Assembly: GCA_024278345.1 (NCBI GenBank)
Contig: JAJRTK010000130.1
Span: forward strand, 1-28,818
From: a bacterium
GTDB taxonomy: Bacteria > CSSED10-310 > JAJRTK01
DNA length: 28,818 nucleotides
Direction: 5' to 3'
Positions 25,764 through 28,818 of this stretch are shown here, in pieces. Made by a program: the position numbers and the translations under genes. Position 1 is the first letter of the stretch. Every line of letters starts with the position of its first letter. The notes beneath the pieces were generated by a model. It was not told the DNA's origin. It searched no databases and worked only from the letters and a program-made list of their open reading frames with translations.

Positions 25764-26491
25764 CATACTTCGGGCTCGGGAAAGAGCACGCTCCTGAACC
25801 TCATCGGCGGCCTCGATCACCCCGCCTCTGGCAAGCTCGTCGTCGCCGGGCAAGACCTGGGCAGCCTCAGTCAGGGAGATCTTAGCCGCTGGCGTGCTCG
25901 GAATGTGGCTTCATTTTTCAACTGTACAATCTGATTCCCGTTCTCAGCGCTTGGCGCAACGTGGAGCTCCCGCTCTTATTGACTCGACTCGGGGCTGGGG
26001 AGCGGCGCCAACGGGCCGAGCTCGCCCTTGACCTTGTGGGGCTTGGAGACAGAAAAAAACACCGGCCCAGTCAGCTTTCCGGTGGCCAGGAACAAAGAGT
26101 CGCCATCGCCAGGGCGATTGTCACCGATCCAAAGCTTTTGGTGGCGGACGAGCCCACCGGGGACTTGGACCGGGCGACGGGCGACGAGATCGGGACCTAT
26201 CAAATCCCCGCGTTTTTGCTTTACACTCTGCGGCGCCGCCCTGGTGGCACCGGCATCTTGCCGGTGGCCGGCTGGACGGGATTGACGGAATTGAACGGTG
26301 GGTTCCTTTCGTGCGTGGACTTGTCAACCGGATCTGATAGGTCCCACGAGATCCTTTCCCTTCTGCGCCGCCTCAACACGGAGCAGGGGAAGAGCATCAT
26401 CATGGTGACCCACGATCCCCACGGAGCGGCACAGGCAGACCGCGTGCTCTATCTTGACAGCGGCCGGCTCGTCGGGGAGCCCGAAGAATGA
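25764..26491 (+). pseudogene. Decayed ABC transporter ATPase (LolD/MacB type), interrupted by a MITE-like element
   Basis: Three lesions are visible. First, the gene begins inside Walker A: TSGSGKSTLLN from 25767 has an in-frame TAG at 25755-25757, and no sequence like the first 40 or so residues lies upstream. Second, the frame to about 25907 (LIGGLDHPASGK ... RWRARNV) must shift to continue as [20 protein letters not shown]; a single G seems lost near 25905-25908. Third, 162 bases are added at 26192-26353 between the D-loop (ADEPTGDLD) and the H-loop (IMVTHDP). Otherwise the Q-loop, signature [14 protein letters not shown] and Walker B are well conserved, so decay looks recent. An open frame from the GTG at 25961 to 26491 may be annotated as a protein but lacks Walker A. 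The family powers FtsX/MacB-type permeases, encoded just downstream; the TGA overlaps the next ATG as ATGA. Confidence 0.85.
26192..26345. mobile_element. 154-bp MITE-like element with terminal inverted repeats and 8-bp target duplication
   Basis: Ends are GGGACCTATCAAATCC (26192-26207) and GGATCTGATAGGTCCC (26330-26345), inverted repeats matching at 15 of 16 bases. The flanks are an exact 8-base direct repeat, ACGAGATC (26184-26191 and 26346-26353), as left by transposition. Near the middle is a perfect hairpin, CACCGGCA-tct-TGCCGGTG. There is no room for a transposase, so it must be mobilised in trans. Element plus duplication add 162 bases, exactly 54 codons, with no stop in the ATPase frame. 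Removing them rejoins ATGDEI to LSLLRRLN as in normal ATPases. I cannot name the parent IS family. Confidence 0.88.
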
Positions 26492-27459
26492 AGACCATCC
26501 CTTTGAGCTATCGGTCAAAGATTCTCTCCCTGCCCGGCGTCGAGCAGATCTCGGCAGCCGTCTGGTTCGGCGGAGTCTACAAGGAGCCGGAGAACTTCTT
26601 CTCCAGGATCGCCGTGGAAGTTGAACCGTTCTTGGAGATGTACCCGGAGTATCGGCTCACGCCCAAAGAGAAAAGTGACTTTCTCCGGGAAAAGGGCTCC
26701 TGCATCGTGGGGGAAGGCACGGCAAAAGCCTATGGGATGGCGCTCGGCCAGACCGTCCAGCTTCGTGGAGACATCTTTCCCGGCGCATGGGACTTCACCA
26801 TCCGCGGCATTTATACGACGGATCAGGAAGGCGTCGATAACACACAGATGTTCTTCCACTGGAGTGCCCTCAACGAACGCATCAAAGCCCAGATTGCCGA
26901 GATGACCGATTTTGTGGGGTGGTACTGGGTCAAGATCGCCGATCCCGGGAAAGCCGCTGAAATCTCCAGGCAGATCGACGACAACTTTGAGAACTCCAGC
27001 GCGCAAACCCGCACGGAAACGGAGGAGGCGTTCCTTCTGGGCTTCATTTCCATGATGGGCAATATCCAGTTCCTGTTGACTGTCATCGGGATCGCCGTTT
27101 TCGCCGCCATGACCATGGTAGCCATGAACACGATGATGATGTCGGCTAGAGAGCGGACGAATGAAATCGGAGTCCTCAAATCAATCGGCTTTACTGGTAC
27201 GAGCATCACGGGGCTCATCCTTGCCGAGGCCCTCTGGATCTCCGGGATGGGTTACGTTTTGGGAACGGTGGGAAGCCTGGGGCTGGAATCAGCTCTACGA
27301 CCCCTCCTCTCCGCCGTCGCACCCACCTTCTACATCCCCTTCCGCGCACGGGCGTTAGGCTTTGGCATCGCGCTCCTTATCGGGCTTGCCAGCGGCCTTC
27401 TTCCGGCAATTCGGGCCTCTAGGCTCAAGCCTGTGGACGCACTACGCACCGTGCAATGA
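26488..27459 (+). CDS. ABC transporter permease, N-terminally truncated (MacB/FtsX type)
   Basis: 323 residues. The sequence opens [20 protein letters not shown], which corresponds to the start of the periplasmic domain in full-length relatives; the cytoplasmic N-terminus and first membrane helix, about 60-70 residues, are missing. The rest is well kept: a periplasmic domain ([24 protein letters not shown]), then three helices (around [35 protein letters not shown], and [20 protein letters not shown]) with the FtsX-type [17 protein letters not shown] loop. The ATG overlaps the ATPase stop (ATGA) and has GGAG 8 bases upstream, so it could still be translated. With TM1 lost it probably cannot assemble a working exporter. 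It is best read as part of a decaying ABC operon. Confidence 0.8.
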
Positions 27460-27470
27460 GGTGAAAGAGA

Positions 27471-28652
27471 ATGTCCCTTCCCATCGCTTACAGCCTGCTC
27501 AATCTGCGAGAACGCTCCACGGGCTCCATCATGACCGTGGGCGGAATTTCTCTGGTTGTCGCTACTTTTATCCTCATCTTGGCCCTTGCCGACGGATTTA
27601 CGAGGGTCCTGGCCAAAACCGGGTCGGAACGGAACGCCATCCTCCTCCGGGAAGGTTCGACCGCGGAACTCAACAGCTATATCAGCCGGAACCAGGCACG
27701 CCTCATCGCCGCCAGATCCGAGAACTTTACGGAAGTCTCAGCCAAGGGGCAGCCCCTTATCAGCCCTGAAATGCTGGTGATCATCAGCCAGCCGAAGAAA
27801 GGGGCTCCCAACCAGCCGGCCAACGTCAACGTGAGGGCTGTTTCTCCGCTCGCCAACGAGGTAAGGCCCGCCCTCAAGGTTACCAGCGGCCGCTGGTTCG
27901 AGCCGGGAAAAGGCGAGATCGTCGCTGGCTCCGCGCTGAGCCGCCGAGTGGCGGACCTGGAGCTGAACGGGACCATCCACTTCGCCAAACGGGATTGGAA
28001 GGTCGTGGGCATCTTCGAGGCCGGCGGAAGCTCGTTCGAATCGGAAATCATGGGTGATATCGAAGAGCTCCAGAATGCCTTCAACCGCGGTGACGGCTTC
28101 CAGTCCATGACCCTCCGCCTCAAACGGCTCGGAGATCTCGAAGCTCTCAAGGCGGAACTCCAGAAGGAAAAAGAGCTCAATCTGGCGGTCTACCGCGAAC
28201 AGAAATACTATCTCCAGCAAGCTGGAGCTCTCCGGACCTTCATCGTCGTCGTTGGCATTGTCATTTGCGGAATCATGGCCATCGGCGCCATGGCCGGGGC
28301 TCTCAACACAATGAGTGGCGCCTTGCTGAACCGGACGCGGGAGATCGGCACGTTGCGGGCCCTTGGCTTCTCTCGCACCGCGGTACTCCAATCTTTCATG
28401 ATCGAAATCCTGCTCCTTTCGGCCATAGGAGGAGTCGCCGGCTGTCTTCTCTCGCTGGCCTTCGACGGCATGGAAACCGGGACCATGAACTGGACAACCT
28501 TCTCCGAGCTCAGCTTCACTTTCCACGTGGACAAGATCCGCCATTTCGGTCTAGGACTGGCCTTCGCCCTGGGAATGGGCGGGCTCGGCGGCCTGATTCC
28601 CGCGGTTCGGGCGGCCAGAAGGAATATCACCACGGCCCTAAGACAGTTGTGA
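27471..28652 (+). CDS. ABC transporter permease, apparently intact (MacB/FtsX type)
   Basis: 393 residues, a normal length for the family. There is a cytoplasmic start, a first membrane helix near 20-42 (IMTVGGISLVVATFILILAL), then a MacB_PCD-like periplasmic domain (about 45-255). Three C-terminal helices follow, with the FtsX loop LNRTREIGTLRALGFSR and the ending LIPAVRAARRNITTALRQL. ATG has GAGGTG 7-8 bases upstream and lies 11 bases after the first permease. By family it should work with an ATPase and the other permease to move lipids, lipoproteins or small molecules out of the inner membrane. With the ATPase gene broken and its partner truncated, it is likely non-functional here unless another ATPase serves it. 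No frameshift or internal stop is seen. Confidence 0.88.
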   Translation: MSLPIAYSLLNLRERSTGSIMTVGGISLVVATFILILALADGFTRVLAKTGSERNAILLREGSTAELNSYISRNQARLIAARSENFTEVSAKGQPLISPEMLVIISQPKKGAPNQPANVNVRAVSPLANEVRPALKVTSGRWFEPGKGEIVAGSALSRRVADLELNGTIHFAKRDWKVVGIFEAGGSSFESEIMGDIEELQNAFNRGDGFQSMTLRLKRLGDLEALKAELQKEKELNLAVYREQKYYLQQAGALRTFIVVVGIVICGIMAIGAMAGALNTMSGALLNRTREIGTLRALGFSRTAVLQSFMIEILLLSAIGGVAGCLLSLAFDGMETGTMNWTTFSELSFTFHVDKIRHFGLGLAFALGMGGLGGLIPAVRAARRNITTALRQL

Positions 28653-28679
28653 GGCTCAAGATGCTGGATGCGGACCTGC

Positions 28680-28818
28680 GGCCTCGGTCATGGTACCGGC
28701 CACGGTTCAGATTTCAGACGCCGCCCCGGGGCTTCCAGCCCTGGAACCCGGCGGAGGCTCCGCCTCCGGACCTCCGCTGGGAGCGCCGCTCCCAGACCCA
28801 CGCCAGGGAGCCAGCTCC
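28680..28818. repeat. Palindrome-rich terminal repeat, right copy
   Basis: Bases 28680-28703 are the exact 24-base reverse complement of 111-134. Bases 28747-28818 equal 1-72 and again contain the hairpins (28750-28764, 28777-28795, and a third cut by the window end). Joined to the left end across the shared 72 bases, they give a unit of about 201 bases with perfect 24-base inverted ends and three internal hairpins. No coding potential. Confidence 0.8.

Follow-up and report, generated by a model that had tools for sequence, protein, structure and literature searches.

A 154-bp element lies in frame within an ABC transporter ATPase gene, and the question that it raises is whether a piece of mobile DNA has here added a peptide segment to a protein, as the initial annotation of the locus had proposed. 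The window examined is a stretch of 28,818 nucleotides from a bacterial draft genome (6.06 Mb in 550 contigs, 87.9% complete). The element occupies positions 26192-26345 on the + strand, and its terminal inverted repeats, GGGACCTATCAAATCC on the + strand at 26192-26207 and GGGACCTATCAGATCC on the - strand at 26330-26345, are complementary at 15 of 16 bases (94%). It is flanked by an exact target-site duplication, ACGAGATC, at 26184-26191 and 26346-26353. In its central part is a hairpin, CACCGGCA-TCT-TGCCGGTG (26248-26266), with perfect 8-bp arms and a 3-base loop, which translates as TGILPV on the + strand and as TGKMPV on the - strand. In a single-stranded DNA fold it is far stabler than shuffled versions of itself (z -3.9), a stability that the inverted ends and the hairpin explain. 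The element and one copy of the duplication together make 162 bp (154 + 8), or 54 codons that read through in the ATPase frame without a stop. The initial annotation had described the near-perfect 16-base ends and 154-base body, the exact 8-base duplication, the open ATPase frame, and both readings of the hairpin, and in each of these respects it was correct.

The element is one of many in its own genome, where BLAST returned 42 matches, the best of the other copies being 97 to 98% identical to it. The 16-base end, allowing up to 2 mismatches, matched 337 times genome-wide, compared with 3 matches for a reversed-pattern control. Complete copies whose ends are exact number 54, compared with none for the control; other copies with matching ends, whose absence would have told against a mobile element, are thus plentiful. 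We took a census of duplications in 66 unique copies from the retrieved loci for which both flanks were present. An exact 8-bp duplication borders 49 of them and a duplication with one mismatch borders 10 more, while 58 of the 66 are exactly 154 bp long. The copies fall into two subfamilies, A (to which the window copy belongs) and B, which have their ends and hairpin in common and differ in the remainder, and some copies, such as L058, look like A/B recombinants. At L007 (1381-1696), an A copy is nested within a B copy, each with a separate 8-bp duplication, which gives the relative order of the two insertions. Copies are approximately 98% identical to the consensus of their own subfamily, indicating that the spread was fairly recent. 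Inverted ends, duplications of fixed length, small size, the lack of a transposase gene, and multiple copies are the features by which a MITE is structurally defined, and this element has all of them, as the initial annotation had recognized in calling it MITE-like. We consider it very probable that the window element is one copy of a lineage-restricted family of nonautonomous DNA transposons that spread by transposition with a transposase supplied in trans.

How far does the family extend beyond this genome? A search of 59 further genomes, including seven of the same phylum, returned no match to the element, and the plasmids and phages searched gave no sequence match to it. The hairpin, counted in its exact form only, occurs 222 times in the host genome and once among 192 others. 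The initial annotation had associated TGILPV and TGKMPV with PVC and acidobacterial proteomes, an association that found no backing here: a single one of the 192 other genomes contains the exact hairpin, and TGILPV was not found in the literature searched. In viral contigs, an exact match to one end occurred 15 times and never with a partner end, as chance would predict, and of four matches to a 20-base end pattern in genome contigs, three were chance-like and one was real. A truncated copy of subfamily B, with up to 99% identity, is present on a contig assigned to a Myxococcota metagenome-assembled genome (MAG) (JAJRTE010000302.1; L185, 4819-5042), where it adjoins another repeat that is also present in the window at 168-258. 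This contig may have been misbinned from the host or a close species, or it may reflect transfer. The family is apparently an undescribed, lineage-restricted group of MITEs with clean 8-bp duplications. It adds a new MITE family to a sparsely sampled phylum and, with many contig breaks falling inside its copies, helps to explain the fragmentation of the draft genome.

The gene that received the insertion lies at 25767-26491 on the + strand and is followed on the same strand by two permease genes, an FtsX/MacB-type permease at 26488-27459 and a second permease at 27471-28652. An orthologous operon in the related genome G003 (L130), and relatives in G001, G002, and G007, encode an intact ATPase of 228 to 241 residues and two permeases. 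When the G003 ATPase was compared with the window by tblastn, residues 42 to 99 aligned at 25770-25943 and residues 87 to 222 aligned at 25904-26473 in another frame, placing a frameshift near 25904; the ABC_tran profile is likewise split, with positions 20 to 55 and 80 to 136 in separate frames. The N-terminal 41 residues, which include the start of Walker A, are missing. The first permease lacks its first 66 residues (tblastn covers residues 67 to 379 of the orthologue, and the MacB_PCD match begins at profile position 65), the second is full length and 60% identical to its G003 counterpart over residues 1 to 392, and the membrane-fusion protein encoded beside the operon in G003 had no match in the window. 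Judged from these alignments, the ATPase host gene is a truncated, frameshifted pseudogene. The frameshift is read from one assembled sequence, and a sequencing error could account for the one-base shift but not for the two truncations. The initial annotation was therefore right that the insertion sits in an ATPase frame, but the gene is itself broken, which is invisible from the letters of the window alone. The insertion point falls between what we take, from general knowledge of ABC ATPases, to be the D-loop and the H-loop. An open frame would also be seen if the 54 residues were native to a divergent ATPase and the repeats were coincidental; the initial annotation had named an orthologous ATPase with the same 54 residues and no duplication in many lineages as evidence that would refute its reading. 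We regard a native origin as vanishingly improbable, as the ATPases of four related genomes lack exactly these 54 columns and the same DNA is found at dozens of intergenic places.

The positions of the other copies bear directly on whether the open frame matters. At 53 insertion points the available sequence extends for 300 bp or more to either side, and to the empty site of each we applied a home-made codon-usage statistic, trained on 55 long open reading frames. Only one point, that of the window copy, scored as coding, whereas about 57% of positions 700 to 1000 bp away did so, with fractions of 0.56 to 0.61; the family is thus essentially intergenic, the window copy being an unremarkable exception. 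The next-highest scores, those of L104 and L022, belong to insertions no more than 15 codons from the start of a stop-to-stop segment, which probably lie outside a real gene. A near-exclusively intergenic location would arise if insertions in genes were purged or if the transposase avoided genes, and the window copy probably persisted within coding sequence owing to the decay of the ABC transporter operon, whether before the insertion or after it.

A selfish element that codes for protein in the manner of the Rickettsia palindromic elements, with an open frame kept so that insertions in genes are tolerated as added peptides, would account for the 54 codons open in the host frame and for a unit of element plus duplication that is a multiple of three, the 154-bp length being so widely retained. 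We find this reading highly unlikely. The one coding site belongs to a broken gene, and among the six frames, the A consensus has one that is stop-free, on the + strand, the B consensus has one, on the - strand, and the window copy has two. Since 162 is a multiple of three, the phase is kept at every insertion site and only stops matter, so roughly a third of random insertions of the window copy into genes would be expected to remain open. Counted along the open frame, the A copies differ by 33, 32, and 19 substitutions at first, second, and third codon positions. Third positions have changed least, the reverse of what coding sequence would show, and substitutions in B show no agreement with the open frame of B. 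The initial annotation had suggested comparing how often in-gene copies keep the frame with one in three, a comparison for which there is a single in-gene copy, and its proposal that such elements add peptide segments to proteins was not supported by these results. The open frame through the window copy is incidental; it would follow from the divisibility of 154 + 8 by three and from a window phase that happens to be stop-free. There is very little likelihood, in our estimation, that the 154-bp length was selected for phase-neutral insertion and that rare copies in dispensable genes are translated and seed peptide segments. The lesson is that the integrity of the host gene and the full set of copies should be checked before an open MITE frame is read as protein innovation.

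The intergenic distribution also fits a different account, in which the element is a regulatory or structural repeat of the REP/ERIC type whose hairpin acts in RNA or DNA, transposition explaining only its past spread. The hairpin is among the best-conserved internal parts of subfamily A, with 2 substitutions in 29 copies. Related hairpins (window 26248-26266; L159, about 1580-1598; L165) show paired arm changes, namely, CACCGGCA/TGCCGGTG, CACAGGCA/TGCCTGTG, and CAGCGGCA/TGCCGCTG, which suggests that the hairpin stem itself is maintained across related elements. Against this account, positions 25900-26700 had no Rfam match at the gathering score, no promoter-like or terminator-like site was found in the element, and the orientation of neighboring genes around the copies is mixed (17 tandem, 12 divergent, and 9 convergent). 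Purging of in-gene copies also explains the intergenic bias, and we regard a REP/ERIC-like role as unlikely, though less so than a coding one.

Under the transposition reading that we prefer, a transposase acting in trans would recognize GGGACCTATCA ends and cut the target with an 8-bp stagger. The inverted ends, near-fixed length, duplications, copy number, empty site, and nesting are all observed directly, and from them we infer the transposase. An 8-bp duplication together with inverted ends implies a transposase of the DDE type, and insertion sequence families with duplications of about 8 bp include ISL3, IS1595, ISAs1, and IS256; ISL3 and IS1595 resemble the MITE further in having ends that begin with GG. 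In the host genome, though, copies of both have ends unlike those of the MITE: the ISL3 copy, which an unrelated repeat has split, ends in about GGCTCTTCGCC, and the IS1595 copy has ends of about GGCTCTATAT. A DDE_Tnp_1 match, presumably ISAs1-like, is a C-terminal fragment with other ends, the IS1 copies have other ends as well, and no IS256 transposase was found in the host genome. No transposase with MITE ends was present among the PF01609, PF01610, PF00872, PF03400, and PF12762 matches in the 87.9%-complete draft. The partner may have died out, or it may be missing from the draft, given that insertion sequences in multiple copies would end up on short contigs. A MITE left end with a different interior, on contigs C390 and C395 (L155 and L156), leads into a fragment that by eye resembles a phage terminase rather than a transposase. 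At the end of C390 (L156, 1614-2334), this terminase-like fragment is followed by a frame that, again named by eye, resembles the zinc ribbon of IS1 InsA.

Other repeats accompany the family. Another family of dispersed repeats, with ends that read approximately GGCCTCGGTCATGGTACC and GGTACCATGACCGAGGCC, is represented at 28660-28818 of the window, which appears to break off within this copy, and at L135 (345-536) and L041 (1658-1797). One of its copies, bordered by a duplication near GTTCAAGCG, splits the longest of the ISL3 transposases detected, which lies at a contig start (C5), and a further copy has inserted into an element related to the MITE. An element related to the MITE at L165 (1501-1779; G000:C116:8213) has a central hairpin, in the form CCAGCGGCAGGATGCCGCTGCCACC, that is expanded as an array up to the contig end, and four hairpins at 35-bp spacing occur at C28:5722-5845.

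Two described systems invite comparison. The Rickettsia palindromic elements code for a conserved peptide, and of the first ones to be reported almost half are located within genes (PMC10969869). The element studied here is similar in its size of approximately 150 bp, its palindromic character, and the readability of one copy in the frame of a host gene. It differs in that insertion into coding sequence is confined to one pseudogene among the sites scored, where frequent in-frame insertion into functional genes would be expected, and in that its open frame is unconserved, lying on opposite strands in A and B where a conserved encoded peptide would be expected. QMITE2 of Coxiella burnetii, of 150 to 190 bp and with duplications of 7 to 11 nucleotides, occurs for the most part between genes or in 3' untranslated regions (PMC5896051). 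Our family is like QMITE2 and bacterial MITEs in size, inverted ends, direct repeats at the insertion, a mostly intergenic location, and occasional in-frame copies in genes, and is set apart by its own ends and sequence, a uniform duplication of 8 bp, and a length of 154 bp.
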